In this document: positions 4,674-63,143 of the stretch, piece after piece
How positions within the stretch are numbered: the stretch's first letter is position 1
Layout of the letters: every line of letters starts with the position of its first letter
Assembly (NCBI GenBank): GCA_022539475.1
Contig: VCMS01000046.1
Coordinates: forward strand, 205,609-269,608
Source: Gracilaria domingensis
Lineage: Eukaryota; Rhodophyta; Florideophyceae; Gracilariales; Gracilariaceae
Direction of reading: 5' to 3'
Length of the DNA stretch: 64,000 nucleotides
The notes under the pieces: model-generated
Databases searched by the model: none
Told to the model about the DNA's origin: nothing
Seen by the model: the letters and a program-made list of their open reading frames with translations, nothing else
Position numbers and translations under genes: made by a program

Positions 4674-5171
4674 ATGAAGCTAATCATTTTCACTCTCTCC
4701 CTCATCGCTCTCACCATCTCAGCCTTCCCTGAGAGTCAAATTAGCGATGAGGCCAACCTCTCCGAACTGGCGGACCGCTAAATCGATATTGGCGCCTTGT
4801 TAGCTGCTGTTTTGGGAGGTCCTACTACACCTCCCCCAACGACGGCCCCTGTTACTACTGTTCCCGTCACTACTGTTCCCGTCACTACTGTTCCCGTCAC
4901 TACTGTTCCCGTCACCACTGTTCCCGTCACCACTGTTCCCGTCACCACTGCTCCCATCACTACTGTTCCTGTCACTACTGTACCGCCCACGACAGTTGCC
5001 ACTGGAACCATTTCTGTGTGTGGAGATGGTACTGGAATTGGAATTGATGCCATATTTGGGGATGACCTTGTGTTCTTCGGCGGCCTGTCGCCTGGAAGTG
5101 GTATCTTTTTCGGTGGCCCCATGAGCACAGTTGACGCATCCGGCACGGTAGCCGGCATAGGTAATGGCTGA
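4674..5171 (+). pseudogene. Secreted Thr/Pro/Val-repeat protein, broken by a stop codon
   Basis: The frame opens with a signal peptide (MKLIIFTLSLIALTISAFP) and a short acidic stretch ending SELADR, then hits TAA at 4779-4781. The same frame continues: GP-rich hinge, about nine 5-residue PVTTV repeats (15-bp DNA unit, 4850-4985), then a Gly-rich tail with GLSPGSGIF. Signal, SDE.NLSEL. motif, repeat region and tail all match the intact gene at 6155-6790 on the other strand, where the residue at the stop is Gln. A single CAA to TAA change is the simplest cause. The repeat block resembles an O-glycosylated extracellular or cell-wall protein; function unknown. Confidence 0.75.
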
Positions 5172-6154: not shown

Positions 6155-6790
6155 TTACCTGCCGCCGGCTCCACCAATTCCCAAACCGAACACGAGACCA
6201 TCCACAGTTGTCGTGCTGTCCGCGCCGCCTCCGAAGATACCGCTTCCAGGCGAAAGTCCACCAACAAAGGTTGCGCTATCGCCAAAGAGGGCTGAGATTC
6301 CAGTTCCACTGCCGGCTCCACCCGTGGAGGAGGGACCAGCTGGGGCGGGTGCGGGGGCAGCGACAGTGGTCACTGGCGTGGTAGTCGTGGTCACTGGCAT
6401 GGTAGTCGTGGTCACTGGCATAGTAGTCGTGGTCACTGGCATGGTAGTCGTGGTCACTGGCATGGTAGTCGTGGTCACTGGCATGGTAGTCGTGGTCACT
6501 GGCATGGTAGTCGTGGTCACTGGCATGGTAGTCGTGGTCACTGGCATGGTAGTCGTGGTCACTGGCATGGTAGTCGTGGTCACTGGCATGGTGGTCACGG
6601 GCATGGTGGTCACTGGCGCCATAGTGGCGGCAGGCCCGAATAAGGTTGGCACGAAAGCAGATATGAATGCAAAAGGGTCGAATTGGCGGTCCACCAGCTC
6701 GGAGAGGTTGACCTCATCGCTCACTTGCCTCACGGGGGAAGCTGAGATAGTGAGAACGAAGAGAGAGAGGATAAGCACGAATGACTTCAT
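6155..6790 (-). CDS. Secreted Thr/Pro/Met-repeat protein
   Basis: A 211-residue protein with a clear N-terminal signal peptide (MKSFVLILSLFVLTISASP), a conserved head with SDEVNLSELVDRQ, a central tract of about ten MPVTTTT heptapeptides (21-bp DNA unit, about 6373-6612), an Ala/Pro hinge, and a Gly-rich tail containing GLSPGSGIFGGG. It is the intact paralogue of the broken gene at 4674-5171; the pair is in opposite orientation with tails facing each other. The Thr density suggests heavy O-glycosylation and an extracellular-matrix or wall role (inference). There are no Cys residues in the mature part. The repeat count probably varies between individuals. Confidence 0.8.
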   Translation of the reverse strand: MKSFVLILSLFVLTISASPVRQVSDEVNLSELVDRQFDPFAFISAFVPTLFGPAATMAPVTTMPVTTMPVTTTTMPVTTTTMPVTTTTMPVTTTTMPVTTTTMPVTTTTMPVTTTTMPVTTTTMPVTTTTMPVTTTTTPVTTVAAPAPAPAGPSSTGGAGSGTGISALFGDSATFVGGLSPGSGIFGGGADSTTTVDGLVFGLGIGGAGGR

Positions 6791-12504: not shown

Positions 12505-12759
12505 CTAGAAATATCTAACTACCCGGCGCTGCCGGCCAACTTCCTACACGTATGAAACCGTTGCTGGCTTGTCACGGCGCACCCGGCATCGGGCCAACTC
12601 AGCACACGTGTGCAGAAACACTACCCTTCCTAGGCATACCCCAAAATACGGCCACTACTACAGTAAACTCTCATAGCATGAGGTGTCAAAGCCGGTAACG
12701 GATCAACAAACTATGAAAGACACCTCGGGGCATCCCCGCAAAGAGCGTTTTGCTCTACA
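12505..12759 (-). repeat. Element A 3' LTR, truncated
   Basis: Matches 22196-22466 from CTAGAAATATCT through TGCTCTACA. The remaining LTR part (about 600 bp) present in the other LTR is missing; unrelated repeat-gene sequence begins exactly at the break. Confidence 0.85.
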
Positions 12760-12772
12760 TCACCCCCTTCTC
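12760..12772 (-). promoter_or_regulatory. Element A polypurine tract
   Basis: TCACCCCCTTCTC on the plus strand, purine-rich on the element strand, directly against the LTR. B (25535-25547) and E (53952-53964) have the same C5 core at the same place. It would prime plus-strand DNA synthesis. Confidence 0.75.
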
Positions 12773-12800: not shown

Positions 12801-14320
12801 ATGCGCCTTGCGATGGAGGTATATGAGGAAGTCCCCCAAGACGGGTCTGCCGAGAACTGTTCGGAACCACCAACACCTCCGGTGTCAATAGCGAACCTCG
12901 CCATCTCGAGCCCTCCCGCGATGCCCAACACACCGAACGCCACTCCGTCTTCGACGGCACGTATGCAAGTTTCCAACCCGCCGTTCCGGTCTGTACCTCT
13001 TCCACAGTCGGCGGCTGCCTCCCAGCCGGGTTCCTCCGGACAAGATTACGCTCCAGCTCAAGCTGGTCCCGCGCCCGTATGGGAGGGGTTCAACGCTGAG
13101 ATGACAGCTACGCTGGGTGGATGGCCTACCGCAGGCGCGTTACGCATCCGGGATCCGCACCGGCACAGTTTCCTTTTCGCCTAGGCTTCCTGGCTTGAGG
13201 CCGAGGCCGTTCGGGATACCGAGCTCGTCGACTCGTACGCTGTCGACGGCCAACTCCTTGGTGGGCTTCCTGCTGACGTTACCCGTTCATGGGACTGGAT
13301 CGCCCGCGTTGCGGTCACACCGAGTTGCCTGTTTGTAGGTCGAAACGAGACGAGACAACTCGCTCGCAATGAGATGGCCCGCATTGGGTATGCGCGACAC
13401 TTCCGAGCTCCAAATGAGCATCCGGTGCCGGCACAGTACCAGTATGACGTGGCACGTTACCGAACTTTCGGCGAGGTCGGCTACGGCGACCATCTAGCCA
13501 ACGCGTTGGACGAAATCGACCGATATTCGGACATCGTTCAGCCGCAGCAGGAGTTGATCCAGTGGGCGCGGCCCATTCTTCGTCCCGAGTTCCGGTTTCT
13601 CCGCCGTCCTGCACGGTCTCACTTTCATGAGGGCCTCCGATTCGAGAAGAAATAGCGTTCCCGCTTCCGGGTACTGGTCCCGTACCAGTGCACGGATTTT
13701 CAGCACATCTCGCGTCACTTCCATACTGGGCGATACCTGCCGCTGCCGTCATTCTGGCCTGCGGTCGAAGTATCAAGAGGGTGTCACGTAGAGCTATCGC
13801 CCTGCCTAACTTACATAGGCTCGTATTTCATGAACGATCCGCCTCGCGGCCTGTGGAGCATCCTTGCAACAGAATGGATCTTCCGCGTTGCGGCTTCCTC
13901 CTGATCGAGACATATGATTTGTACCGGGTTTGGTTCATCCCGGAGCTCATCCGGCAAGCGATCGGAGCGCTGAATCTCTCTGAAGTGCTCGGCTCGGTCC
14001 GCAATGCACGAGAAGCCACTGCGTTGGTGGGCGTCATCGACCAGATTGACTGGAACGAGGTGCCTGCTAGCCAGGTTTCCGACGGGGTTCGTCGGCATTC
14101 GGATCGTTCTCCGGGACGGAACGTCAATGCCAGCGACTTCATATACTTTGACGCATGGATTTGGGAGATAATTGGTCCCGCTGAGGCGGCTGGTCGCCGC
14201 CGAGAGAAGCTTCATATCCCGGAAGGGCACCCGCGTGGGTTCTTATACGTCGATGACGACGGCGATGATCCTGCTGAGGGAGGAAGCCCCATGGATGAGG
14301 AAAGCCCAGACGGCGTGTAG
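12801..14320 (+). pseudogene. Antisense ORF of element A
   Basis: It starts 42 bp inside the 3' LTR and runs opposite to pol. Frame 12801 gives a Pro/Ser-rich N-terminus to a TAG at 13182-13184, then in the same frame continues through DTELVDSYAVDG, GGLP and SWDW motifs and RYRTFGEVGYGDHL to about 13600. A shift leads to the block RG.....PC.TYIGS near 13770-13840, and a second shift into frame 13688-14320 gives RVWFIPELIRQ and the C-terminal FIYFDAW...HPRGF...DDGDDP block. Each block has a counterpart in element B in the same order, so the gene is real but decayed. No known domain recognised. Confidence 0.7.
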
Positions 14321-14689
14321 GTTGTACCGGAGCCCGAAGCTATGAGAGATGACAACGAAGTCGTGGTTGTTGTCCCACCCGCTGTAGCGGCTCCCGCGCC
14401 GACGAGCCCATGAGCTCAGGAAGTAGCATCCGCCGGGGGCGGCAGTTCCTCTCTCACTCCGCGAGCGGCGGTCATTCGCGACTTCCTTCGAGGCATGGGT
14501 GTGGCCGTTCCCGATACGGTGACCGACGAGTCGGAATTGTAAGCAATAGCCTCACAGCGCCTCTCTGGAGCTCCCGGTAGTGGGGGTGCCCCAGGTGCTG
14601 GGCCGTCCGGCGCGTAATTCCCCGGCTCGCGATCCCTGACGGGCTACAGTAGTCCGCAATAGACCCCGATGATGAGGGGCGACTCAATA

Positions 14690-15134: not shown

Positions 15135-16244
15135 TCAACCTACTTGGGCTTTGTCCAGCGTAGCCGGTATCGGTGTCCGTGTGCGACGATGGTACTGTAG
15201 CACCTTAGATCGAGGCAAATGCTCGATAGGCTCATGTGTGTAAGAAGAACAGCCGTACCAACGCACTCGATACAATAGCTCTCCATCAGAGGCGTAGCCG
15301 TGACTAATCAGATGGTCCATAACGTACTCCCTGTCGAGGACACGCCGCTCAGTGTGCGATTCGGTTGTCGTGCCCTCTTCTGAGGTGTCGTTGATTGCTT
15401 TCCCGTCGTGGGCGTCGTTGCCAAACGGCTTCCGTCCTGACGACAGTGCGTTCTTTACGCCAGGAGGTTCTGGTGAAGATTGCGTGTTCCTGTCATTCAG
15501 GCTTCCAGACTTCTGGCTTTCCTCCTCGTGTAGTCGGGCTGTGACCTTACTTTGGTCTCCTCGAGCAGCGGGCTTCCGGCGTTCCGCCGGGATCTCCCGT
15601 CGTGAAGAGGAACGGTCCACCTTGCGTTGCGCCAGCGAGTGGTTCTGTTGTGCGCGCCGTGGTAGCGTTTCGTCACTCATCTCCGTATGCGCCGTTGCAC
15701 GGCTGTGCGCTGCCGATTCAAACTCGAAATTTCCGTTTTCGGCGGCCGCGAGCCTTACAGCAGGCACGTGCCCGGCTCGTGTGCTGTTGTCCTCCACTGG
15801 AGGTGGATCGCCGGCGAAGCCGGACACTTGGCGCATTGTGTGCCCGCGTGCAGCGTTGTGCTGCTGCACAATTACTGTGGCGTATCGGCTCGCCATATCG
15901 GCGGTTTCTTTCGTGTTTTCAACGGCTTCATAACTCGATGCTTCACTGAGATCTTCCGAAGTCGCGTCTGCCGTAACAGCACGGTCTCTTTTGACTAACG
16001 TTTCTTCCGGACTTCCTGCTCTCTTCAGCAAAGGTGCGCTACCGCTGTCGGGCTCCGGCTGCGGCGAGATGTTCCGCATTTGACACGGCTGTTGCAGTGT
16101 TTGCGACATTCTTTTCCGGCGTGCTGCACAGCTGGGGCAGGCTCCTGTCCTTCCGCCTGTGACGGCAGTACAGTACCCTCCGCGGGCAAAGCGGCGTTTT
16201 CTGCAGCAGCTACACTCTGGGTGTCCGGCTTTGAGCTCCACCAA
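15135..16244 (-). CDS. Element A pol C-terminus: linker with Cys cluster and chromodomain
   Basis: A 369-codon frame that ends pol. Near its start it has a Cys cluster (CSCC ... YC ... CPSC) of possible zinc-binding type, then a long low-complexity Ser/Glu/Arg linker, and ends with a chromodomain: REYVMDHLISHG, YRVRWYGC, then EPIEHLPRSKVLQYHRR. Chromodomains at the end of gypsy integrases bind modified histone tails and steer integration; that role is inferred from family knowledge. It is probably one polyprotein with the upstream integrase, since B and E show the same end. Confidence 0.7.
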   Translation of the reverse strand: MVELKAGHPECSCCRKRRFARGGYCTAVTGGRTGACPSCAARRKRMSQTLQQPCQMRNISPQPEPDSGSAPLLKRAGSPEETLVKRDRAVTADATSEDLSEASSYEAVENTKETADMASRYATVIVQQHNAARGHTMRQVSGFAGDPPPVEDNSTRAGHVPAVRLAAAENGNFEFESAAHSRATAHTEMSDETLPRRAQQNHSLAQRKVDRSSSRREIPAERRKPAARGDQSKVTARLHEEESQKSGSLNDRNTQSSPEPPGVKNALSSGRKPFGNDAHDGKAINDTSEEGTTTESHTERRVLDREYVMDHLISHGYASDGELLYRVRWYGCSSYTHEPIEHLPRSKVLQYHRRTRTPIPATLDKAQVG

Positions 16245-16307
16245 AGTGGTGCGTTCCTCCTCAGTCTTCCGCCATAACTGCGCGTTGTTCGCGTCTTTCC
16301 GATTGTT

Positions 16308-17642
16308 CTACTGTGCGTCGGGCGTCCTCGCGCGTTCACCACGACTTGCGCGCGACGTTGAGGCTTGCAACGGCGATTCCGTCGACGACGGCGATAACGA
16401 CAGCGAGCGATTTGCCTCCTCCTCCCCCTGCTCAGTTGGAGCGTCGGGGGCGGTGGTAAGCATTCCCGGAGGGACCAGTATCCGCGTGCGTACGTGAGCG
16501 GCAGCAGAGACCGACTTGTGAGGCTCCGGCTCAGCCGACAAATCAGCAAGTCCGCGGTTGGGATGCGGCAATACTGACAGTGAAGTGTACGCTCCCGCTT
16601 CGGCGGCTGGTTCCACAATAGGCGTAGCGGCGTCCGGCGTTTCAGGTTGCGTTTCCCGAGAAACAGGCGTTGGTGCAGGCGTTACGCGATCCCGCGAAAA
16701 ACGCTCCTGCTCTCCCTTGATGTCAAGGACAACCGTACTGTCGGTAACTGAAATAACCCGGTAGGGACCATCCGCGATAGGAGAAAGCTTGTGGCGCTTC
16801 TCCTTCTGGGGATTGTAGTATTTCTTGCGTATGAGGACATAGCTACCTTCCCTGATCTGAGGGGCATGTTTGCGCACTCTGGCGCCAAAAGTCCGCTTGT
16901 AGGCGGCTTGTGCCTTAGCGATATTCTGCCTAACCGTAGGAATAATCTTCGTGACCCATCCCTTCCACGCGTCCCTGCGGAGGCGGGGCGAGGGGAATTT
17001 GTCCTGTACTGCCTGTGGCTCGATGACCACCAACGGTGGAACGCGTTATGGCACAAGCTCGAACGGCGAGATCTGAGTAGTGCAATGAACGTGCGTATTG
17101 TAGGCATATGTCACCTCATCGGTGTATTGATCTCATTCCCACGGATGCTCGGCAACGAACGTCCGTAATGCATTGAGCATTGTGCGGTTAAAACGTTCAA
17201 TTTGCCCATTACTCTGGGGGTGATATGTTGTCGTGAACCAGTTTTGGATCCGTAAGATGCGGCAAACGTCTTGAAACAACTTAGCCACAAACTGCGGTCC
17301 ATTATCCGATACCAAATCAATCGGCGGTCCGTAGACAAAAACCCAGTGTGTAACGAAAGCTTTGGCGACCGCACTGGCGGTAACCTTCTTCAAAGGCACA
17401 GTCCGTACCAGCTTCGAAAAGCGGCGGGTGATCACCAGTAGAAACCGGCTTCCCTGACCGGTGCGAATAAACTCACCGAGCAAGTCAATAGACACTAACT
17501 CCAGTGAAGCCCTAGCAGGGAAGAGTACCAATTTCTTGGAATACTTCCGCAGTTTGACGCGGTTCTTGGCACAATCAGAACATCCACGAACACTGACATA
17601 CGCATCGAAAGCTATCGCTGGCCAATAGAAGTCCTTTCTCAA
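16308..17642 (-). pseudogene. Element A integrase
   Basis: The catalytic core is visible: Asp in IDLLGEF, Asp in VSDNGPQF, Glu in NGQIERFNRT, the DD(35)E triad of retroviral-type integrases. The zinc-binding His-His-Cys-Cys unit spans the junction with the preceding frame (HLSHYAKLSVH ... GCSDCAK). A stop follows HPWE at 17133, another lies near 17040, and then comes the GPY/F C-terminal module (KLSPIADGPYRVISV) in 16308-17033. A TAA at 17643-17645 separates it from RNase H where element B has a Leu codon. Confidence 0.8.
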
Positions 17643-17645
17643 GGT

Positions 17646-18338
17646 TTAGTAGAACTTTCTGGCACCAGGATGGACTGAGAGCTTCGCATAGTGCGACAGG
17701 TGCAGTACCCGTGACTGAAGTGACTGTAGAACCACAATCTGTTGCCTGTTCCCGACAGTACGGATGAGGAATCCTTGGTCGTTCTCGACGAAAGGCAGTC
17801 GTGATCCGCCGTTCAGACGGCTACGAATCTCCGTACAAAAACGGTCCGTGTGCTGCTCCCGGATGAGTTCTTCCGGCTTGATCGGTACGAAAGAACCCAA
17901 TCCTGGGGGCGTGTCTGACACTGCTGAGACAGTATCGTAGATCTCCCATCCTTCCGAATCTTCATCGGCATCGCCCGAGCCGTCTTCTGCTAGGAAGCAC
18001 GGTTCTTCCAGGTCTTCAACTGGCGCAGCTTCAGCCGCTGTTTCCAAGCGGGACAGTGCATGAGCCTGAGTGTTCAGGAGTCCTTTCTTGTAGCGGATAT
18101 CAAAGTCGAATTCCGACAAGCGAAGTCTCCACCGCATCAAGCGGCCAGATGGCTCTGCTATAGAGAGTAGCCAGCGTAAGGCCGAATGATCGGTATGAAC
18201 AATGAAGCGAGTTCGCATAAGGTAGGGCCGCAGTGTCTGTAATGCCCAGATAACTGCCAAAAACTCCTTCTCGGATACCGAGTAATTCCTCTCGTGAACG
18301 TTGAGGCTTCTTGACCAATACCCAACTGGAGTAGACAA
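17646..18338 (-). pseudogene. Element A RNase H, start lost by deletion
   Basis: The frame begins just before GYWSRSLNVHERNYSVSEKE, goes through FIVHTDHSALRWL and the ALSRLE motif, and ends in the integrase zinc-finger half. The part of RT and RNase H that in B lies between DDIIVFS and PIGYWSRSL (about 180 residues) is absent; RT codes run straight into this segment in another frame. Confidence 0.8.
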
Positions 18339-19029
18339 TGATGTCTTCCTGGTAAACCAGGCAAGTCTTCCACTTGAAGCGGGCGAGCAAAATATCCACA
18401 GCTCTCTGAAATGTGGCTGGCGCGTTCGTTAACCCAAAGGGCATCCGATTGAATCGGTACAAGCCTTCATGACAGACGAAGGCTGTCTTGTCACGATCTT
18501 CGGCCCTCACGGGGACTTGCCAATAGTTCCAATTCGCATCTAGGGTTGTGAACACTTTCGTGTCGCCCAATGAATCGATGCATTCATCCATTCGTGGGAT
18601 AGGATATACATCCTTGACCGTAGCCGCGTTTAGCTTGCGGTAATCGATGCAAAATCGCCAAGACCCATCAGCTTTGGACGCGAGCACCACCGGCGATGCT
18701 CAAGGTGACTGAGCCGGCTCGATAACTCCAGCGCAGAGCATTTTCTCAACTTGAGCTTTCTCCTCCTGCCAAGCTGTCGGTTCTGCCCTGTAAGGGTGCT
18801 CTGAAATGGGCCGAGTATTCCGTAGCAAATCAATTCGATGTTCGGTAATACCAATCTTACCCAGTTTGTCATCCCACATGGGCGTGAAATCTTCGGGCAT
18901 GTGACGCAATTTATCGCGCTGAGTCTCTGGGACATGTTCAAGATCCAGAGACTCCAGTTCTTGTACTGCCCTATCCTTCGTGTCAGCAGCACTCAGGTCC
19001 TTATCATTACTCTCCGACGAGGTCTGCAT
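18339..19029 (-). pseudogene. Element A reverse transcriptase, internally deleted
   Basis: RT blocks present: the approach segment with AGVIEPAQS, WRFCIDYRKLNAATVKD, FTTLDANWNYWQVP and RFNRMPFGLTNAPATFQ. The catalytic YxDD box reads YQED, so one catalytic Asp is Glu, and the sequence then jumps by deletion into RNase H. A TGA at SP*ASP (where B has Trp) also interrupts it at about 18700. It cannot encode an active polymerase. Confidence 0.8.
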
Positions 19030-21431: not shown

Positions 21432-21577
21432 CGTTCACCGACACAGTTGGCCAATTGGCAACCAAAACAACTTCCGAAAACGGACAATGAAAGATTCGTA
21501 AGAACGGGTATTCCCAACTATCTGGGCTCTAAAAAAACGAACCAACCCCAACGATTGTTGGCCCATAAAGCCGATTC

Positions 21578-21592
21578 TAGGTCGGGAGACCA
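21578..21592 (-). promoter_or_regulatory. Element A primer binding site
   Basis: TAGGTCGGGAGACCA on the plus strand lies next to the 5' LTR and reads like a tRNA 3' end including CCA. The same 15 bases occupy the same position in element B, so both probably use the same tRNA primer. I cannot assign the tRNA. Confidence 0.7.
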
Positions 21593-21597
21593 GTTTT

Positions 21598-22466
21598 TGG
21601 TGCAATCCCACGAGTGGGTAAACAAAGACCCCGTCGCGGAAGGCGCACCTACAGGGTGTTCGATCCCCGCTCCCTATAGGGGTAGGGTCGGTGGTAGAAT
21701 CCTCCGGTAGGGCTGATACAGGCCGGGTGTAAATCCGGGCAGCCCCGTCCTGGGCGTGCAGCCGGAGGTTGGGGTAGGTAGAATCGGCGTAGAATCCGGG
21801 TAGTTCCGGCGAGCCACAGCGAGTGGAGATATCCAAACCAACGGTGTTGGGCAAAACGGGCAACCAACGAGCCGCGCAGCGGTGCACTGCCTCGCGAGAT
21901 CGAGAAATATTCCCAGACAATGTGGGTCAAACCTGTATAACAGGTGCAGAGCGATAGAAGCCGTATGACGGAAATAATAACAATAAAACAACAGAAAAGA
22001 TGCCGTAACGACGGTCTAGAACTCCTCAGTGGTAGAGGTCGGATGACTACCCCGGATTTGTGGCGGCTTGCCCGATTAGGGACGAAGACCGTTCACAAGC
22101 GGCAAAAAGGTCAGAGCCAGAAGCCTCCTTGAGGTTTACTTCCCGTACAGTGGCGGCAAGTGCCGCCACCTATATAGAGCACTTGAAAATATCAACTAGA
22201 AATATCTAACTACCCGGCGCTCCCGGCCAACATCCTACACGTATGAAACCGTGGCAGGCTTGCCACGGCGCACCCGGCATCGGGCCAACTCAGCACACGT
22301 GTGCAGAAACACTACCCTTCCTAGGCATACCCCAAAATAGGGCCACTACTAAAGTAACCTCTCATAGCATGAGGTGTCGAAGCCGGTAAGGGATCAACAA
22401 ACTATGAAAAACACCTCGGTGCATTCCCTTTGTGGGAATGCACCGAGGTGTTTTTCATGCTCTACA
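21598..22466 (-). repeat. Element A 5' LTR
   Basis: 869 bp, TGGTGCAATCCC to TGCTCTACA. It contains a TATA-like TATATAG (22171-22177, reads on the minus strand as CTATATA) beside a GGCGGCAAGTGCCGCC hairpin, a plausible promoter region. The right flank ACAAG would be one half of the 5-bp target duplication; its partner was lost. Confidence 0.8.
22404..22458. repeat. Perfect 25-bp inverted repeat at the outer edge of the A 5' LTR
   Basis: Arms 22404-22428 and 22434-22458 are exact complements with a 5-base loop. The 3' LTR has only the first arm in diverged form at the same place, so the palindrome was acquired by this LTR. Confidence 0.85.
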
Positions 22467-24556: not shown

Positions 24557-25534
24557 TGTAGTGCAAATCCCACTTGGAAGAAATGAAACTCAAGGCGCTC
24601 GAATCCTTGCTCCCTTGGGAGGTAGACTCAGCAAAAGAGCCCTCTGTATACGGATAAGGTGGGTGTAAAACCGCCCGTACTTCGGAAATACCACGGAGGT
24701 GACGGCGAGAATCGCTAAGAGGGAATCTGTAAGCAAGCGTCCGAGAGTCAGAGATCTCTGATCGGAGGCGGAAGGGGAGGAACCCAGGTCGACGGGGTGC
24801 CTCGAAAAAGAGGGAAAAGATAGGGAGAAGGATGGAAAAAGGGAAAAGGAAAGAAGAGAAAAAGGGACAAACCCGAGGGCGGGGTCGTGCGACAAGCGGC
24901 AACAGACCCGGGCCGAGGGTGACGATGTGTATTGAGCCCACGCGGCACACCTCTATACAGAGTCGATACAATATCTGAACACCAGAGTAGCAGACACCTG
25001 CAAGTTAATGTGCGAACACAGTCCGAAGACAAACGTAGTGTTAGATCAGGGTACTTGAGTGATCCTTTGGGGATGAAATAAGCGAAACCGTACGGGGTGA
25101 CCCTCCTCGCGGAGTTGTGCATTACGCGTAGGCGCTCAAGTCAGAGCCGCGGAAAAGGTTGAGTCTACTTTGTGGTGGTGACGGCGAGGTCGCCATCACC
25201 TAAGTAGGTTTCCACAAATTAAACTAAATAATTAAACTAAGTAGTGCCAAATACGGCAGAGCCACACACGTGTTGCACTTGTGCAGACCCGCCTTAACGG
25301 CCACTACTTCCAATAACCAATCCAATTTTCTCTGTAACAGAGCCAGTCCATACACGCGTACACGCGATCCACTGCCACAACCAGTTACCAAACCATCAAC
25401 CCCATCGGGTGCCACCATTCCATATGGTGTCAGAATGCCACCTAAATTCATAACCTTGCAGTAGAGGCAACTCCGTAAGCCGAGGTGTTATGAGACGGAA
25501 CACGTCACAAACGCGAAATCGCGATTGCTCTACA
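24557..25534 (-). repeat. Element B 3' LTR
   Basis: 978 bp from TGTAGTGCAAATCC to GATTGCTCTACA, with only scattered differences from the other LTR (for example CACACACG against CACGCACG). It has TG...CA ends. Confidence 0.95.
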
Positions 25535-25562: not shown

Positions 25563-27470
25563 GTGTCGGCGATTTCACCACCTCGTTCGCGAGAACATAT
25601 AAGCTGGGGCATGAGTGACTCGGACATCCCGATACCAAGAAAACCAACGCTCAACAGCGACACAATCTCAAGTGAACACACGTCTCCTGCGAACTTCGAC
25701 ATTCCGAACGACCCAGCAACGCAAGAGGTCGCTTCTTCGATGAATCCGAATTCTGACGACAGCGCTTTCCCTTCCTCAGGGGGTCCCAGCCAGTCTGGTG
25801 TTCCCTCCGGTGCCGGACCTTCCTCTGCAAGAGCAGGATAATTCTGCGGTTTCGCCACGGCCCCGCTGCCACAGGGGAGTCAGCAGCCGGTTGCTTCAGA
25901 AATGAACGTCGCCGCGCTGTCGGCTTGGAACTCCTCTGGAGCTATGCCGGTTACGGCGCACGCGTCGGGATGGACCACACGCGAATCGCTCCTCGTGCGA
26001 TACCCGTGATTAGACGGCGGTTGGGCGTATTCTAGAGCACCCTGGTTCCACCCTCAAGCGGTGAAGGATGAAGACCTCATCGATTCCTACACGGAAGACG
26101 GCACACTGCAAGGCGGTTTACCACGGGATATGGTGACCTCCTGGGATTGGAGAACCCGCATTGCGGTGGCACCACACCTCCTTGACAGGAAAAGAACCGG
26201 CAGACGGTACGAGACGCTGGACGAAGCTCGCGCAGGTATGGCCCGTCTTTCGTACTTCCGAATGAACCGTGCTCACAACCCACCAGAGATGGTACGGCCC
26301 GAGTACGGGTTTGACCACTCCTGTTACCGAACGTACGGTGAAATCCCCTACGGAACGAATCTCGCTGCCTTCGATCCGACGAAGATTGACCCGAATGCTC
26401 CGATAGATCCGGATATGTTGCTCTTCAATCGATCGATTCTGCGAGCAGAGTTCCGCTTCATGTGACTCCCTTCTGGCGAGGGGACCTTCAGCGACCGTGT
26501 CCGAAGTGAAAGGAAGTGGCGATCCTGGTTCAGGTTCTTCGTACCTTACACGAATTCCGAAGTCGAATTTCTGCGAAATGACGCTCTACCGGGTCGTTAC
26601 GTCCCAATTACTTCATGGTGGAACAACCTTGAGGTTCCACGCGGTTGTTTCGCGGAGTGTCCTCCCTGCATTGCCTACATTGGCTCCCGCATGATTGCGA
26701 ATCCGAAGTCCGGGTACTGGGCCCTGATGATGTGGGAATGGGCTGCCGGCGTTGCCCCGTTCACCCTCTGGGAAGTCTACGACCAGTGCCGTATTTGGTA
26801 CCTTCCCCCGAAGTTGATGCAGCTCATCCGACAAGAGGATTTACACAACGCTCTCGGTTCCTCCACCAACGTGGATGAATTGCTGTACCTGCTCGACGTC
26901 ATCGACGATATCGATTAGAGCAGAGTACCGCCCGAGAAAGTTCCACCGGGTCAGCGTACGCGCTTCGATAAGTCGCCAGGTAGATGATATCCAGGGGCTG
27001 GAGACTTCGTGTACTTCAACCCTTGGGAGGGGACCGTGACCAACTTTGCGGAAACACGCGCCTTGCAGCAAGTGCCTCGTGTCGTGCCCAGTGATCACCC
27101 TGTCGGGTTCAGGTTTTCCGACAGTTACTATGCCCAAGACAGCGGGGACGATCCGATGGTGGATAGCGAACCAGTGAATCTTGGAGAGGGGGTGCAACCG
27201 ACGCCGGTGAGTAACTTGCAGATTATTCGAACGACGGGAGCAAGCGGGGGTAGCGCTCCACCTGGTTGGAACATCACGCCGACTGGGGCGGTTGATCCGC
27301 AGGCTGCTGCGTTGCGAAACCAGCTCACCCAGATGGGCGTCCCGATTCCACCGGGGATGACGGATATCGGCCAGATGCTGGCGTTAGCTGCGCAGAGCTA
27401 CCCTTCGCTTTCCCTGAACCAGGGTGGTACCACCAATCCGGAAGGTGCCGCCCCATCGACGGGGATGTAA
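25563..27470 (+). pseudogene. Antisense ORF of element B
   Basis: One register (frame of 25563) stays coding for about 636 codons, broken only by stops at 25839, 26010, 26463 and 26916. From the N-terminus: Pro/Ser-rich head; DEDLIDSYTEDGTLQGGLPRD followed by SWDW.TRIAVAP; RTYGEIPYGTNL; ILRAEFRFM; a Cys-containing block RGCFAECPPCIAYIGS; a hydrophobic and Trp-rich block with CRIWYLPPKLMQLIRQ; FVYFNPWEG ... HPVGFRFSD ... GDDP; and a Gln/Pro/Gly tail. The same blocks occur in A in the same order and the last also in E. Function unknown. Stops in an otherwise conserved frame mark it as a pseudogene copy of a real gene. Confidence 0.75.
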
Positions 27471-35983: not shown

Positions 35984-36087
35984 ACAACCAAATCTCCTGT
36001 TCGAAGATCAACCCACCAAGGTTTCATCTCCACAATTCCAAGTCGGAAAACTTCCAAATCGGAATCACTTCAACAACAAATCCCTTT

Positions 36088-36102
36088 TAGGTCGGGAGAC
36101 CA
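36088..36102 (-). promoter_or_regulatory. Element B primer binding site
   Basis: TAGGTCGGGAGACCA, identical to that of A, two bases from the 5' LTR. Confidence 0.75.
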
Positions 36103-36104
36103 CT

Positions 36105-37082
36105 TGTAGTGCAAATCCCACTTGGAAGAAATGACACTCAAAGTGCTCGAATCCTTGCTCCCTTGGGAGGTAGACTCAGCAAAAGAGCCCTCTGTATACG
36201 GATAACATGGGTGTAAAACCGCCCGTGCTTTGGAAATACCACGGAGGTGACGGCGAGAATCGCTAAGAGGGAATCTGTAAGCAAGCGTCCGAGAGTCGGA
36301 GATCTCTGATCGGAGGCGGAAGGGGAGGAACCCAGGTCGACGGGGTGCCTCGAAAAAGAGGGAAAAGATAGGGAAAAGGATGGAAAAAGGGAAAAGGAAA
36401 GAAGAGAAAAAGGGACAAACCCGAGGGCGGGGTCGTGCGACAAGCGGCAACAGACCCGGGCCGAGGGTGACGATGTGTATTGAGCCCACGCGGCACACCT
36501 CTATACAGAGTCGATACAATATCTGAACACCAGAGTAGCAGACACCTGCAAGTTAATGTGCGAACACAGTCCGAAGACAAACGTAGTGTTAGATCAGGGT
36601 ACTTGAGTGATCCTTTGGGGATGAAATAAGCGAAACCGTACGGGGTGACCCTCCTCGCGGAGTTGTGCATTACGCGTAGGCGCTCAAGTCAGAGCCGCGG
36701 AAAAGGTTGAGTCTACTTTGTGGTGGTGACGGCGAGGTCGCCATCACCTAAGTAGGTTTCCACAAATTAAACTAAATAATTAAACTAAGTAGTGCCAAAT
36801 ACGGCAGAGCCACGCACGTGTTGCACTTGTGCAGACCCGCCTTAACGGCCACTACTTCTAATAACCAATCCAATTTTCTCTGTAACAGGGCCAGTCCATA
36901 CACGCGTACACGCGATCCACTGCCACAACCAGTTACCAAACCATCAACCCCATCGGGTGCCACCATTCCATATGGCGTCAAAATGCTACCTAAATTCATA
37001 ACCTTGCTGTAGAGCCAACTCGGAAAGCCGAGGTGGTATGAGACGGAACACGTCACAAACGCGAAATCGCGATTGCTCTACA
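36105..37082 (-). repeat. Element B 5' LTR
   Basis: 978 bp, TGTAGTGCAAATCC to GATTGCTCTACA, the partner of 24557-25534. Confidence 0.95.
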
Positions 37083-54030: not shown

Positions 54031-54942
54031 ATGACGGTCTCCAATTTGGCCTCCCCGGTCTTTTCTAACAGCGACACCGGTCAACCCTCCTCCACGCGGA
54101 CTGCGGTAGTGTCTTCTCCGATACCTCGCCGCGCTCTCCCTTCTCTCTCGCTTCCAGCGCTTTCGTTTCTCCCTCGCGCGCTTCCTGCAATGCCGAACCC
54201 GAATCAGGGTAGCAACCAACCGCCTGGCGGGTCTCAAAACCAATACGTTGGTGGTTTTGCTGGGCCGCCACACCCTTCCTCCTCTAAAGTGCCTATCTCA
54301 CAGCCGTCTTCCGCTGGCGTTCCGTTTCCGCAACCGGTCAATCCGGGATTTCACACGGCGTTTCTTCCCCAGACGGGTGGTTACATCTATTACGACCCCT
54401 GGACACGGGTGCCGATTACCAACGCTGAGGTGGAGCTCCTTCGGAACGCCGAGCGAGTCATCCCTCCGGGGCACCTTACGGGCTTCATCATAACTGATGA
54501 GTTCTTCCACCCTGTTGGGGACCAGAACATCATGGTTGACGACGCTCCCGATGACGGTGACGAGTACGGCGACGACGACTTCGCGGCAGCTCCGGTGAAG
54601 GGGGCAGTACCTGCTTCAGCAGTGCCAGGTCCCCAAGCGGGTGCTAACGCGGCCTTGTCGAGCCCGGTGAATGTTCCTTCTGCCTCTCAAGCGGTTCCTG
54701 TACCCACACCAGTGGTTGTCTCGACTCCAGAGGAGAGTGCTGCCCATTCTGCGATGGCGGCGTCGGCTGCCCCGAACGAAGCCGCGAACGCGGGTATCTC
54801 TGACGAAGTACGGGCTGCCGTGACTGCTCAGTTCCTCAGCGAGGCTGGTGCTTCCGACGCGCCGTCGGGTGACGTTTCGCAAATGCGCGATGCGCTCCTT
54901 GCGCAGCTCGCGAACGCGAACAATCAGCGTGGTTCCGAGTAA
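54031..54942 (+). CDS. Antisense ORF of element E, intact 303 codons
   Basis: Starts 80 bp inside the 3' LTR, opposite to pol. The first 110 residues are Ser/Pro/Gln-rich; then GGYIYYDPWTRVPITNAEVE, RVIPPGHLTGFIITDEFF and an acidic DDAPDDGDEYGDDD segment, aligned with the C-terminal block of A and B (F-Y-F/D-x-W ... P-x-H-P-x-G-F ... GDDP). The rest is Ala/Pro/Val-rich with a helical tail (SQMRDALLAQLANANN), as in B's tail. The middle blocks of A and B (DSY, SWDW, PPC..YIGS) are absent, so it is a shortened form. Uninterrupted although its own pol is truncated. Function unknown. Confidence 0.7.
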   Translation: MTVSNLASPVFSNSDTGQPSSTRTAVVSSPIPRRALPSLSLPALSFLPRALPAMPNPNQGSNQPPGGSQNQYVGGFAGPPHPSSSKVPISQPSSAGVPFPQPVNPGFHTAFLPQTGGYIYYDPWTRVPITNAEVELLRNAERVIPPGHLTGFIITDEFFHPVGDQNIMVDDAPDDGDEYGDDDFAAAPVKGAVPASAVPGPQAGANAALSSPVNVPSASQAVPVPTPVVVSTPEESAAHSAMAASAAPNEAANAGISDEVRAAVTAQFLSEAGASDAPSGDVSQMRDALLAQLANANNQRGSE

Positions 54943-55376: not shown

Positions 55377-56770
55377 TTATCCGACCATCGCTTGATGTAG
55401 GTTAGCCGGCAACGCCGTCTTAGTTCGACGATGGTATTGCACGATCTTCGATCGGGGTAAGTGCTCCACGGGTTCGTCCGAATCCCGCGACGGCGGATAG
55501 CCATACCAGCGTACCTGGTACTGAACATACCCCTTCGGGTTCCAACTGTGTCCCACAATGTGGTCTACGACGAACTCTTTCGAGTATTCGCCCCGCTCGA
55601 GCTCTTCTTGCGAAGGGTCGTCAGCGCGCTGCGGTGGTGCCGTAACTTCGCCACCAGCGGTGCTATGAGTCTCTCCTGACGCCTTCGGCGGTGAACATGC
55701 CCTCTGTTGAGTGTTCGCTTCCCGTTTCCGGGGTTCCTCAAGCAGCTTCGCCGCTTCGGCGGGTCCGCGAACGGCTAGTTCACGCGGTAGTTCCCGTCAT
55801 GACGGTGAAGGCGGACGCGGAGGCGGATTGTTCACCACGGCACGTGCCGGTTCACGTGACGAGACGCGACGGTTCGCGGTGGTGGCACTGCCACGAGCTG
55901 TGATTGGCCCAATGTGTGGCGCGCGCTGCGCACCCCAAAATTTGTGGTGCGCAAGCGCTCCTGCAGCTGCAGTGTGCGTTTTCCCTAAATCAGGGCTGTA
56001 ATCCGTATCTCCAACGAGCGGTGCGCCGTCATGACTTAGACAAACGTCATGACGTGCGACTTTCGACTTCCCCAAGGCTGGGTGCAACGGTACACTACTA
56101 TTACCCGAACCGGGGTGTGTGATCTTCGCTTCAGCGAGCGTCTTCGCTTCTTCCTGCTCTGCAGTGTCTAAGGTACCGGGATCTCCCGTGCCTTCCTTAG
56201 CGCGCGCCCGCGAAGGCGGTATGTGGCGGTCGTCAGCGACGGTTTGCGGCGACTGCGCGTTCGGAATACTCTGTGATACAGTATCCAGCTTCGCTGTAGC
56301 CTCACTCGGCAGAGAAATCGAGTGTTCTTGATCAACTTCCAGCCTTGCCGTGGTAACGTCGCGAACGAGAGTATGCTCCGCGTCCTGTGCCGACGAGACG
56401 ATGGGCGCGTGTTCTGGCGACAATTCCCCAAGCGGGTGAGCGATACCAGTACCCTGGGACAACCTCGAGTCCGTTCGTTGCGTGCAGTATCCTTCCGAAA
56501 GGTCGCGATCCTTCGTAGAAGGTTGTGCATCCTCCGCGGAGTTCTGCGCTACAGCGGCCGACTGCAGCGCGTCCTTCGCGTCCTCAACACGCGATAGCAG
56601 GTGATCCTTCCCACTGCCAGTGGAGTCCGTAGCAACTACGTCTTCGACGGTGTCCTGAGGCGACTCCGCCTCCTCTTCATTATCTTTCCGTGAATCACGG
56701 TGCTGCGACGGTAGCGACACCGGTGACTCACTCTCCGCGACGACGCGTGAATCCTCCTCGTCTGTGTTCT
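55377..56770 (-). pseudogene. Element E pol end: linker and chromodomain
   Basis: The chromodomain reads KEFVVDHIVGHSW, YQVRWYGYPPSRDSDEPVEH, then LPRSKIVQYHRR and stops at 55377-55379. Upstream in the same frame, after one stop at 55797, is a 320-codon acidic Ser/Asp/Glu linker like that of A. Nothing of the integrase core is left. The last part of the open frame (56771-56858) lies beyond the probable element border. Confidence 0.75.
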
Positions 56771-56858
56771 GCAAAGTGGAATATAGTCTGTTCGCTTTGG
56801 AAACTAAGCTAGTTTTGGGGCTATTTGGGGCGCACGAGGGGGTAGCAGAGGCTGGCAC

Positions 56859-57173
56859 TCAAAAAATTAAGAAATTTTGGAATATTAAATTCCATTTCGC
56901 GCAGTTTAGTTCTTGGGTCCCCTAGTTTTTGTAGAGGTTCTACTTCGCCGCACCACCCCATTCACTCTTTTCCGCGACCCTCTCTCAAAACTGCACTCGT
57001 GCTAGTTTGCGTTTCCATTTTCTCCCATGTTGCAATGCCAATCGCAATTCATCCCACCTCAATCATCCCATCACTTCTTCCCAGTCCACACCACCCCCGC
57101 TATTTACCCATTTCTCGCCCATCACCCGTTCCCATCCTCTCTCTCCGTCTCCGCAAACGTCATTTTGTAGAAG
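56859..57173. other. No gene seen
   Basis: Intergenic stretch between the E remnant and the coiled-coil gene; AT-rich at first, then C-rich on the plus strand. Confidence 0.4.
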
Positions 57174-58157
57174 TCAGGTGGACAACCCTCCCCCTTCTCG
57201 TATACCCGCCTCGCCCCAAAACGGCTTCACATCCCTCCCATCCTTTCTCTCCTCCTGTCCCCTCAGAATCCCCTTCGCAGTCCGCGCTACCTCCGCCGCA
57301 CTCCTAAACCCAGTCACCACCGGAGCTCCCACTCCCTCCCGCGGCACCTCCTCCTCCACCTTCTTCATCTCCTTACGCCTCTTCTTCAGACGGCTCTTCC
57401 CATCCCCAACCCCACCACCCTTTGTCTTCGGTGTCACAGGAGACCCCTTCTGCACCGCCACCCTTCCCACACTTCCCTTCTCCGTCTTTCCCTCCACACC
57501 TCCTTTCACCCTCTCCTCTTCCACCAATCTTTGCCTCTTGCACAGCTCCTTCACCTCCTTCTCCAGCACGTCCAACCTCTCGTTCAGAACCCTATTCTCC
57601 TCCCGCAACTCTCCAACCTCCCTTCCCGCACACTCCACTATCCCATACACATGATTTCTCATCTCCACTCCCAATACCGACAACGAATTCCGCAGGCTCG
57701 AAATCGCCTCAACCGAAACACCACTACCACCCCCACTCAGCACCACACCGCCCATTTCCGTTACAATCTCCACAATTCCATCGTCCAGTTGCTCCTTCAT
57801 CACCAACCCCAACATCCCCACCCTCGCCTTCATCTCCCCCACAAACCGCATCTCCCTGTCACCCTCTCCGCCCCCACTCTCTATCTGGTCTCCAACCTCT
57901 AACTGACTCAGATGCACCGCACCCCTTCTCTCCATTGCGACCCCCTCCACCTCCAATTCTACCCCCTTCTCCACCTCATCACCATCCCCTCTCCTCGCCT
58001 CACACTTCTTTCCTTCATCAGCCACTTCCTTCTTCTGCGACATCCGACCAGCCGCCGTAATCACGTCCTCTTCCCGCTTTGGTGACGGCGTCTGCGGTAC
58101 CTCCTTCCCCTCCAACAGCACCCACAGCTCCTCATCCTTCACGTATCCGTTCGACAT
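57174..58157 (-). CDS. Glu/Lys-rich coiled-coil protein, function unknown
   Basis: 327 residues from the Met at 58157 (MSNGYVKDEELWVLLEGKE); an in-frame start at 58253 is less likely. A charged Glu/Lys/Gly region comes first, then a heptad-patterned coiled coil (VGELREENRVLNERLDVLEK and following), then basic clusters (KSRLKKRRKEMKK) and a short tail with FRSAAEVARTAKGILRG. Strand asymmetry is extreme: the coding strand is purine-rich. A basic coiled-coil protein could be structural, nucleic-acid binding or an ORF1-like protein of a retroelement; no reverse transcriptase frame is next to it. I do not recognise the family. Confidence 0.5.
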   Translation of the reverse strand: MSNGYVKDEELWVLLEGKEVPQTPSPKREEDVITAAGRMSQKKEVADEGKKCEARRGDGDEVEKGVELEVEGVAMERRGAVHLSQLEVGDQIESGGGEGDREMRFVGEMKARVGMLGLVMKEQLDDGIVEIVTEMGGVVLSGGGSGVSVEAISSLRNSLSVLGVEMRNHVYGIVECAGREVGELREENRVLNERLDVLEKEVKELCKRQRLVEEERVKGGVEGKTEKGSVGRVAVQKGSPVTPKTKGGGVGDGKSRLKKRRKEMKKVEEEVPREGVGAPVVTGFRSAAEVARTAKGILRGQEERKDGRDVKPFWGEAGIREGGGLST

Positions 58158-58489
58158 CTTCAGAAGAACAAGTAGTAGTTGGATCGAAGTTTCCGCTGCG
58201 ATACAGTGCAATCGAGCTAAACTGTGCTCTCCACCCCCACTGTCCAACCACACGGGCTATATCCAGCACCATGATTGTCCCTGTTTCCCTCATCCCATTT
58301 CCCGCCAAAACATCTACTGTACACCTCCGCACCTTCCACTATTTAAGCGCCATCTCTCTGTCTCCTCTTCGCGCTCACATAATCCCCACCCACCTCGCCT
58401 CGACCGGCGATATTTTTCTCTTCCAGCATAACCTCACTCGATGGTTATAGCAAAACAGGAAGATATTGCCAGTGGAGGCAAGCTAGGGA

Positions 58490-58765
58490 CTAGTGATTGT
58501 ACTTAGAGTTGCTCACCCTCTGTCTCGACTGGGGGCATGTTCTTCTTCCGTCACATCCTGTCTGGGTTGTGACAAAAAAAGAATATGTCACCACTCGACA
58601 CCGGATGGGTAACAATGATAGCACGTAGAGTAGTTCATCCTCCCTCTCAGCGTCCACTGGGGATATATTGATGTTCTCTCACATCCTTTCCCGGTTGTCA
58701 TACAAGAGAAATACATCTCCAATGGAGAAGGAGAATTTAGTTGTGATAACACGTAAAGGTAACAA
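58490..58765. repeat. Degenerate tandem repeat, unit about 125 bp
   Basis: Units begin near 58495, 58618 and 58746, with shared words TAGAGTTGCTCACCCTC against TAGAGTAGTTCATCCTC, TCACATCCT.T...GGTTGT, and GATAGCACGTA against GATAACACGTA. Only two full units are recognisable. Confidence 0.55.
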
Positions 58766-58796
58766 TGTAATAAACAATAATTTTATGCTACTATCT

Positions 58797-59117
58797 CTAA
58801 CCAACCTTTCGAAAACCAGCTATGACATGAGCTGGGTTACTCGAGCCAAAGATGGCAGATCCTGCAACTGAAATGTTTGCACCGGCCTTCACTACTGCTT
58901 TCACAGTACTCAGTCCAATACCTCCATCCACCTGTATCCCTATTCTTGGGTACAACTTCCTTGCATGTCGCACCTTATCAAGAACACCCTCCATAAACGC
59001 CTGTCCTCCAAACCCTGGCTCCACCGTCATCAACAATAACATGTCTACAACTCCTTCCTTCATAAGTGCTTCTACGACCTTTATAGACGTATTCGGGCGC
59101 AACCCAACTCCATCCTT
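58797..59117 (-). pseudogene. Ribulose-phosphate 3-epimerase, C-terminal fragment
   Basis: About 105 codons with the signature LLMTVEPGFGGQAFM, IQVDGGIGLSTV (catalytic Asp) and GANISVAGSAIFG, the last three strands of the TIM barrel of pentose-phosphate and Calvin-cycle ribulose-phosphate 3-epimerase. The N-terminal half with the metal-binding His and Asp of the HLDVMDG type is absent; a TAA stands immediately upstream in frame. It could be a 3' exon, since ATTAAAAG before GATGGAG might be an acceptor, but I see no matching upstream exon before the next gene. More likely a truncated copy. Confidence 0.65.
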
Positions 59118-59514
59118 TTAATCATGGCAATCCGATTGAAGCTATAAAACCCGTTCACCTCATTTATGAAGCCAAAATGGCTCCTTTCATCCTGTATTCA
59201 AGCTCCCCGTAACTCGTACTTTACAACTACTTTACAACTCAGGTTCGAAATCAGTTTCATTCATTGCACACTTTTTACTCTTCCACCTACCTTTCATAAA
59301 ACATCATCACACTTTGTGGCTTGTCGTCTCATACAAGGCCTATCATTCATTCAGTACAATCACATATCATACATTTCGCTCACTTTCACAAAGTGAACCA
59401 TGTTCCCGTTCTGCGCTTCCCAACCGTTTGTACTTACGTATCACTCTTTACCCCAGCAGTTCTCCGCCCCATGTTCCATTTTTATCGTCACACAAAAACA
59501 ATCGAACACTTGCA

Positions 59515-60417
59515 ATGAACTCCCAGTCCGACATGCCTCCGACTCCGCCTCCGAGTCCCAGATACTCTGACGTCCCTCAGGCCTCGTCTCCCGCTCGAAG
59601 GACTCGGGCCGTTATTGTTGGAAGGGGTCGCATAGGTACCATGCTGGCGAACGAAGAAGATACGGTCATTTCCGCACACGAATTCTGCAGCATGGCTGCA
59701 ACCTCTCATCTTTCTGATGTACCGATACTAGTTTGTGGAAGAACGAACACCCTGGAGACCGTAATTCAGGCTTGCCCTTATTCGCTCAGAGAGAATCTCG
59801 TTTTCTTCCAGAATGGAGACATCATACCATTGCTTTCGAAGCTCGGTGTGGACAAATGTTCAAAAGTTGTCCTATACGTTGGTGTCCCCTCAAGAAACGC
59901 AGCTCCGCAGGATGGTGTCACTCCTCAAAGTCCGGATGGTCTCACTGTCGCAACAGGAAAGTGGGCCTCCAACGTTGCAGACAGGTTTAGGTCTATGGGT
60001 CTCACTTGCCGGGTTGTCGACGAAGACACATTTCTCGTAAGCTATTATGAGAAGCTCGTGTGGCTATCAGCGTTCAACATCGTCGGGGCCTCAAGAGGTT
60101 TCATTCCTATGGACGTAGTCGCTACGGAGTGCAGTACGATTGTGCTCACAATAATGAAAGAGCTGTTGAAGATAGTTTCGCTTAAGACAGGTACTACTTT
60201 CAACCTGGAAGAGACCGTTGGGCGACTTCTTGCATATGGGAAAACTCTCGTTGGCTTCCCTACTTCTTTCTCCGACTTTCAGTTTAGGAACGCGTACTTC
60301 TACCACTTTTCCCGCCAAGAAAGAAACATTGTAGGCAGTGACCTCGCTCCTTTTCATACAAACTACGTCAACGTTGTTAAGGAAAAGTTATCCCCCTCCC
60401 CATTCCCCCAGCTTTGA
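59515..60417 (+). CDS. Ketopantoate reductase (ApbA/PanE)-like protein
   Basis: 300 residues from ATG 59515, chosen because the upstream 67 codons are low-complexity and the next in-frame start lies only in non-conserved sequence. The N-terminus is Pro/Ser-rich. Rossmann dinucleotide motif AVIVGRGRIGTML at about residue 30, LVFFQNGDI (the NG motif of the family), and after the hinge ASNVADRFRSMGL, YYEKLVWLSAFNIVGA with the Lys and Asn equivalent to the catalytic pair. PanE reduces ketopantoate to pantoate with NADPH in pantothenate and CoA synthesis. The Gly-x-Gly-x-x-Gly is GRGRIG. Family assignment is reasonable; exact substrate is not proven. Confidence 0.6.
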   Translation: MNSQSDMPPTPPPSPRYSDVPQASSPARRTRAVIVGRGRIGTMLANEEDTVISAHEFCSMAATSHLSDVPILVCGRTNTLETVIQACPYSLRENLVFFQNGDIIPLLSKLGVDKCSKVVLYVGVPSRNAAPQDGVTPQSPDGLTVATGKWASNVADRFRSMGLTCRVVDEDTFLVSYYEKLVWLSAFNIVGASRGFIPMDVVATECSTIVLTIMKELLKIVSLKTGTTFNLEETVGRLLAYGKTLVGFPTSFSDFQFRNAYFYHFSRQERNIVGSDLAPFHTNYVNVVKEKLSPSPFPQL

Positions 60418-61043
60418 GGTTAGAACACATGACTTTTCGGTGTTCTAAACCTTTTAGAGATAGTTAAACATAAAAGTTACTTTATCGAAATGACCTGTTC
60501 CTATTACATTACTTATATTGTTCGTCCTTCTGTGGTTCAAATATGCCCCTTTAAATCCTACATCCGTTATCACTAATACTTCGCTAAGATTTTGCTAGAT
60601 AGAAAATGGTCATTCCATATCATTAAAGTGCACGATACTAGTAACGAAAAAAGTACAAAAATTGTGATATTTCTGAAGAACTAAGCGTTTGCATTACTTG
60701 GGGCACCCATATAAAGTAAGGTAAACCTTTTATGGGCTTCAACCCATAATGGAGGTTGTTTTACTCTTCTTGATTTCTAAGCTCATGTAAAGATATTTAC
60801 AGTTTTCTTTACCCACTTGAACCCGTACATATAATTTATGACTAAATCATCCTTTCTTTACTTCAAATCGATGCAAAAACTTCTCCTCCTAGTAACGTTT
60901 TAAAACAGTACTACAATACCCGTATATGGTCGTTCTTAGACTCTTTTTATACTACGAAACACCTTGTGAACATCAATCACATCCTTCCCATTCGTATACC
61001 CACACCCATTTGCAAAACGAACCCTTTCGAAAGCTTTCGAAAC
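60418..61043. other. No gene seen
   Basis: AT-rich spacer with the 5' flank of the HAD gene; no TATA element is placed convincingly. Confidence 0.4.
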
Positions 61044-61915: not shown

Positions 61916-61967
61916 CTATGATATGAGATCTCAGTAATAAAAGTGTCGTATATATCTCAATACCCTT

Positions 61968-62879: not shown

Positions 62880-63143
62880 ACTTCTCTTAAAAGCAACCTT
62901 AAGTGCAGTTTCAAAAGCGTTAGGACGCTACATGTTCAATTGCAAATTGACTGGTGCCACCAATGATGTTAACGATACCGAGCATTTGGCATGTTGCAAT
63001 TAGACGCAACTGGACCAAAGACGTTTGACATTTGTTCAATTACCAGTCTGTCGCACGTTTTCTATGTTCATATGTATAGCCTTGTAATAGTATACTACTC
63101 TTAATACTCGTAAGACACTCATAATTTACTAATCATCTCATTC
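62880..63143. other. Spacer, no gene seen
   Basis: AT-rich spacer between two minus-strand genes; it must hold the promoter of the HAD-like gene. Confidence 0.4.

Follow-up and report, generated by a model that had tools for sequence, protein, structure and literature searches.

A 64,000-nucleotide stretch of the genome of the red alga Gracilaria domingensis (contig VCMS01000046.1, positions 205,609 to 269,608; hereafter the window) contains long terminal repeat (LTR) retrotransposons, here called A, B, and E, in which an additional gene, or what is left of it, lies antisense to gag-pol in the interval between pol and the 3′ LTR. Intact copies elsewhere in the genome carry one open frame of about 600–720 codons in the same orientation and interval. 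At the level of sequence, intact frames are present in four subfamilies of the element and at a fixed place within it, and the pattern of substitutions in the A-type copies demonstrates strong purifying selection on the antisense protein. The likely explanation, held with good though not full confidence, is an accessory gene of a group of Ty3/gypsy elements from red algae, very probably gracilarioid ones, with an antisense promoter of its own, whose protein would act in the nucleus on the nucleic acid or transcription of the element and aid its propagation. The three antisense stretches of the window are as follows.

12813–14617, + strand: coding stretch of A on the antisense strand, interrupted by stops and a frame change; ATG at 12921 the probable true start
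25611–27470, + strand: antisense gene of B; probable true start, ATG at 25740
54031–54942, + strand: antisense open reading frame (ORF) remnant of E, with 303 codons open, the conserved core deleted, and both ends kept

The original prediction, made from the window, had described a coding region opposite gag-pol in all three elements; this was confirmed, with the qualification that A and B are broken and that E, although open, has lost the conserved core and keeps only the two ends. In A, with gag-pol on the minus strand, the first in-frame ATGs are located at 12801 and 12813 and the final stop at 14615–14617; the stretch is interrupted by in-frame stops at 13182, 13653, and 14318, and its frame changes near 13890, where homology switches to frame 2 (frame 3 from 12813 also meets a stop at 13902). 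Position 14320, previously given as the end of the gene, corresponds to a premature stop. The B gene contains five in-frame stops ahead of its last one. With the inner LTR edges at 12759 (A), 25534 (B), and 53951 (E), the first in-frame ATG outside the LTR is 42 (or 54), 77, and 80 bp from the edge, respectively. Of the distances proposed earlier (42, 29, and 80 bp inside the 3′ LTR), those for A and E stand and that for B is corrected, "inside" having to be understood as internal to the LTR, with the ATGs outside it.

Genomic copies and selection on the antisense frame

Copies were searched for in the 77.9 Mb assembly (680 contigs). The first 127 codons gave at least 150 matches across the whole assembly, many within 610-codon open frames, and A-type full-length copies elsewhere were found to have 599 codons; the protein of one of these, P0001, was used as query and reference. 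In the P0001 search, 52 of the 73 scored A-type copies were stop-free across the matched span, at 93–100% identity (hand count); these numbers are lower bounds, since only the best 73 of 1350 candidates were scored, and some contigs may represent duplicate haplotypes. Searches with the homologues P0003 and P0005 (described below) yielded at least 88 and at least 78 matches, of which 54 and 66, respectively, lacked a stop (hand counts; 10 of the P0005 rows are A-type copies). Most of these matches group by open frame, with about 651 (F651), 710–731 (F712), and 660 (F660) codons. Thus, five subfamilies carry the antisense gene—A, B, F651, F712, and F660—with intact frames in four, subfamily B being represented only by the broken window copy; the representatives of F651, F712, and F660 (L065–L068) are all open frames. 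Between subfamilies, identity is 36–43% for the antisense proteins and 62–77% for the pol pieces, with B and F660 forming the closest pair in pol and the highest antisense value (43%) being common to B/F660 and A/F712.

The orientation is also maintained in these copies. In L069, L070, and L071, the antisense gene and pol of the same copy lie on opposite strands. For the F712 type, among the matches listed, a reverse transcriptase (RT) was found on the opposite strand at 3552–4053 bp in 43 of 68 copies and on the same strand in none of the 68, with the 25 copies lacking a paired RT not counting as absences; this comparison was made between 68 antisense rows of at least 88% identity (from 113, with second pieces of two copies excluded) and 97 RT rows. 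In 12 of the 43 pairs, the gag-pol frame spans 1840 codons or more and is stop-free where matched; each of these 12 also has a stop-free antisense frame of 700 codons or more, as do 12 of the other 31 pairs. Furthermore, in three copies whose antisense frame is open, the two LTRs show 99.65–99.88% identity, indicating that those three insertions are recent.

To quantify selection, A-type copies were aligned to the P0001 coding DNA (58 rows besides the reference), and the ratio of nonsynonymous to synonymous substitution rates (dN/dS) was determined by the Nei–Gojobori method for 21 of the 58 rows, comprising 16 of 20 diverged loci, L002, window A, and three close copies (L046, L053, L055, and L057, near-identical or short, were omitted). 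All selection figures given here cover the A type. The antisense frame showed dN/dS of 0.07–0.37 and 0–7 stop positions per approximately 599 codons, compared with 8–40 stop positions in the remaining five frames; the 21 pairs share one reference and are not independent of each other. The antisense frame is accordingly more than a product of chance, and dN/dS is far below 1, so that the refuting condition set beforehand (dN/dS near 1) did not apply. In four of the other frames, dN/dS was at least 1.00, with one value undefined. Low values were also obtained in the −2 frame (0.12–0.46), as might be seen if the protein blocks merely reflected a reading frame on the sense strand. These low values arise, however, because third positions in the −2 frame mirror those of the antisense frame; this frame has 13–25 stop positions in each of the 21 pairs, every complementary frame is closed by stops, and the antisense stretch extends beyond pol. 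Sense-strand coding as the cause of the blocks was rejected on these grounds, its probability being practically negligible; the second refuting condition of the original prediction, an explanation by the complementary pol frame, thus does not apply either.

A second line of evidence comes from 30 close A-type copies (27 distinct haplotypes, two copies with a stop). Variants present in at least two of the 27 haplotypes numbered 6 nonsynonymous and 25 synonymous, giving a ratio of nonsynonymous to synonymous polymorphism (pN/pS) of 0.085, and singletons 25 and 16, giving 0.55 (one stop variant was not counted); this difference suggests that new insertions decay and that the lineages that spread are those in which the gene is kept. 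By region (19 rows), pN/pS was 0.74 for codons 1–36, 0.28 for codons 37–117, 0.20 for the core (codons 118–482), 0.48 for the acidic tail (codons 483–545), and 0.33 for the C-terminal end. The gene corresponds to the descriptive class aORF-3R, that is, an ORF antisense to gag-pol in the pol/3′ LTR interval (A, B, L069–L071, and F712 copies), with many copies and conservation like that of element proteins: compared with window A, dN/dS was 0.27 for the antisense gene of L004 and 0.29 for a gag-pol piece (620 codons) of L042, two different reference copies. Its divergence from one subfamily to another exceeds that of pol.

Two further explanations bear on these data. One is that the antisense transcript, rather than a protein, is the functional product, acting in self-regulation through double-stranded RNA (dsRNA); the gene is convergent with gag-pol, and a dsRNA-type possibility has been raised for antisense ORFs in a review (PMC7264820). 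The selection observed tracks codons and amino acids, which an RNA function does not predict, so that this explanation is improbable, although an RNA function could exist in addition. The other, of still lower probability, is a host gene captured and carried along by chance. The sequence is an orphan, and gene capture by LTR elements is described in the same review (PMC7264820); however, its presence in five diverged subfamilies and its retention by selection in the A type argue against passive carriage, though not against capture from a remote origin.

Predicted promoter and start codon

The inner edge of the LTR and the C-rich complement of the polypurine tract (PPT), found at that edge in all five subfamilies, are the main upstream DNA that the subfamilies have in common, together with a few other short matches. 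A TATA-like octamer starts at a nearly constant distance from the LTR edge, namely 61 bp in A, 62 bp in B, 63 bp in F712, and 64 bp in both F651 and F660, and an antisense core promoter is predicted between the PPT and the gene, internal to the 3′ LTR. The features concerned are listed here.

12505–12759, − strand: truncated 3′ LTR of A, with its inner edge at 12759; 233 bp repeat with 22196–22428
12760–12771, − strand: PPT of A, sense strand AGAAGGGGGTGA, adjoining the LTR
12820–12827, + strand: predicted antisense TATA site of A, TATATGAG in A and TATATAAG in the reference copy
24557–25534, − strand: 3′ LTR of B, 978 bp, with 98% identity to the 5′ LTR of B
25596–25603, + strand: predicted antisense TATA site of B, CATATAAG

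When sites were scored against the TATA consensus, TATAWAWR, with the five subfamilies aligned and a maximum of 40, the best aligned window reached 35; none of 2000 dinucleotide shuffles attained this value, the highest reaching 26. Several considerations reduce the weight of this result. The pattern was picked after the sites had been seen, and the five subfamilies share an ancestry that the shuffles do not model. The F660 site scores only 6 of 8, a value matched at 60, 62, 102, and 145 bp. Within A, conservation of the TATA block is 0.91 as against 0.89 and 0.87 in the flanks, and exact TATATAA is present in 13 of 22 rows.

Transcripts usually start 25–35 bp downstream of a TATA box. A TATA box at 61–64 bp would therefore place the transcript start past the first ATGs, and translation would proceed from a later in-frame ATG. 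A conserved in-frame ATG is located 101–170 bp downstream of the TATA-like site, its context resembling M...PN in A, B, F660, and F712, and this ATG, rather than the first, is probably the true start; in A, an additional ATG follows 42 bp beyond it. The pN/pS values before (0.74) and after it (0.28 and 0.20) fit a downstream start, and two of the homologues, P0005 and P0008, start here. Conversely, the annotation of P0002, the homologue from Gracilariopsis chorda, extends to the first ATG, with a sequence similar to that of A in this part, and the pN/pS of codons 1–36, at 0.74, is still below 1, both of which favor the first ATG.

Antisense protein family and proposed role

Three database searches, each scoring the best 8000 candidates by shared words, identified 12 homologues (P0002–P0013), including proteins from G. 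chorda, with 66% identity over the whole length, and from Agarophyton chilense. Since public records list the named homologues merely as unnamed or hypothetical proteins, recognition of the family aids annotation. An alignment of 17 proteins contains 40 invariant residues (in columns filled in at least 15 of the 17 rows), of which one is the first methionine and eight are arginines. The usual layout consists of a variable, often proline-rich N-terminal part, a core of approximately 360 residues, and an acidic tail. The N-terminal part, missing from several sequences, contains a PLPQ/PLLQ motif in 9 of the 17 proteins; in P0001, a conserved PPFRSVPLPQ (GFRSVPLPQ in others) at residues 56–65 stands out within this variable region and is perhaps a binding motif. 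The tail has an isoelectric point of 4.1–4.3 in 14 of the 17 proteins, and many sequences finish with a short conserved segment; P0009 is atypical in having a long basic tail.

No known domain was recognized, with nothing significant found in Pfam, NCBIfam, or the PDB sequences. Pfam scans of 10 and 12 proteins (17 different), extended to E values of 1, gave only weak matches, each in one or two members and the best being E3_binding (E 0.029), and four proteins had no match in NCBIfam, a prokaryote library. Seven pattern matches in viral contigs and 50 in prokaryote genomes were not confirmed as relatives in any case. Hydropathy gave no sign of a membrane protein in most members: the Kyte–Doolittle maximum over 19 residues is at most 1.53 in 16 of the 17 proteins and 1.86 in P0009, the transmembrane cut-off being 1.6. 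An envelope-like protein was rejected, the gene being antisense and a transmembrane-like segment being absent in those 16.

In the proposed mechanism, the antisense gene converges on pol, and the TATA-like site, which lies 61–64 bp inward from the 3′ LTR and directly follows the PPT, would drive antisense transcription, with translation beginning at the conserved ATG 101–170 bp downstream; expression of the gene is a prediction from its DNA. The protein, with an arginine-rich conserved core, an acidic tail, and no transmembrane segment, would act in the nucleus on element nucleic acid or transcription, as modelled on proposals for the Grande GENE23 and Retand TRP28 proteins, and this action would help the element to propagate. 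A nuclear, nucleic-acid-binding role is considered probable because the core is arginine-rich, the tail is acidic, and these two proteins offer an analogy. Against it, Pfam gave no domain for P0001 (E up to 5) and the PDB sequences gave no significant match that would indicate a fold (a remote fold match is possible); nuclear action is proposed by analogy. As a tentative alternative, distinctly less likely than nuclear action, the protein may be structural or directed against host defence and do its work elsewhere in the cell, contributing to the particle or its assembly or countering host silencing. Host-facing proteins often evolve fast, and the antisense protein does evolve faster than pol between subfamilies (36–43% versus 62–77% identity). 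There is, however, nothing directly in favor of a particle role, and an envelope role is unlikely given the hydropathy of 16 of the 17 proteins.

Element structure and comparison with known systems

The elements show the features of Ty3/gypsy retrotransposons: LTRs, a primer-binding site, a PPT, and RT–ribonuclease H (RNase H) ahead of integrase. The remaining features of A and B are as follows.

15138–18428, − strand: C-terminal half of A pol, with RNase H at 17649–18428, integrase at 17136–17645, and a downstream tail
21598–22428, − strand: 5′ LTR of A (matched part), aligned to L039 1196–2029
30156–32264, − strand: RT, RNase H, and integrase of B, on the strand opposite to the B antisense gene
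36105–37082, − strand: 5′ LTR of B, repeat partner of the B 3′ LTR

The truncated 3′ LTR of A corresponds to the inner end of the 858 bp LTR of other copies, and GGCGC borders element B at both ends. The primer-binding site TGGTCTCCCGACCT is common to A and B (21540–21640 and 36050–36130). The pol tail of A (15138–16307) contains by eye a stretch resembling the chromodomain that follows integrase in the chromovirus branch, with no chromodomain match in Pfam even at E 10, and the outer end of its 5′ LTR (22400–22450) continues into a near-perfect palindrome, perhaps a rearranged end. Elsewhere in the window, a tandem array with a 21 bp unit (6303–6645; 12 register copies, 62–98% alike to the reference copy) and one with a 15 bp unit (4809–5018), which could encode a Thr/Pro/Val-rich repeat, were observed, and GC skew is strongly negative (−0.26 to −0.36) in three of the four 2 kb bins of 56000–64000.

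Antisense ORFs between pol and the 3′ LTR are a recognized kind, known from Grande, RIRE2, Retand, and Boty (PMC7264820, PMC11963269), and the comparison with plant LTR elements in the original prediction was sound. The position and orientation of the red-algal gene therefore belong to a kind already known; no earlier account of this family of proteins, of its group of hosts, or of a TATA-like site at a fixed place was found in the literature searched by title and abstract start. Grande GENE23 and RIRE2, from plant Ty3/gypsy elements, resemble the red-algal gene in being antisense, in the pol/3′ LTR interval, and conserved within a family, and GENE23 is described as having an upstream promoter of its own and a nuclear protein (PMC7264820). 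Their elements differ from the red-algal ones in host group, and GENE23 is compared here by description rather than by sequence. The Retand protein TRP28 (PF04195) is reported from flowering plants only (PMC11963269); no Pfam match to it was found in the 17 proteins at E up to 1, and membership in that family was rejected. Boty of Botrytis cinerea provides an example outside plants, with an antisense ORF in the same place and orientation, likened by position only (PMC7264820). Retroviral antisense genes such as HTLV-1 HBZ also have an antisense promoter at the 3′ LTR (PMC7264820, PMC11963269). The likeness to HBZ is again one of description, and the red-algal core promoter is predicted to lie internal to the LTR, not within it.

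No function has been established for the antisense genes that retrotransposons carry next to the 3′ LTR. The red-algal protein family is an addition to these and, being selected about as strongly as gag-pol, argues for a role in propagation; its many intact copies, five subfamilies, and directly testable predicted promoter constitute a natural data set. The chances are about even that red algae hold a separate, ancient antisense accessory family in their gypsy elements, unrelated to those of flowering plants and driven by a TATA promoter of its own, set at a constant distance from the 3′ LTR. In that case, an antisense regulator would have been acquired repeatedly in one and the same position, by LTR elements in plants, fungi, and red algae and by some retroviruses.
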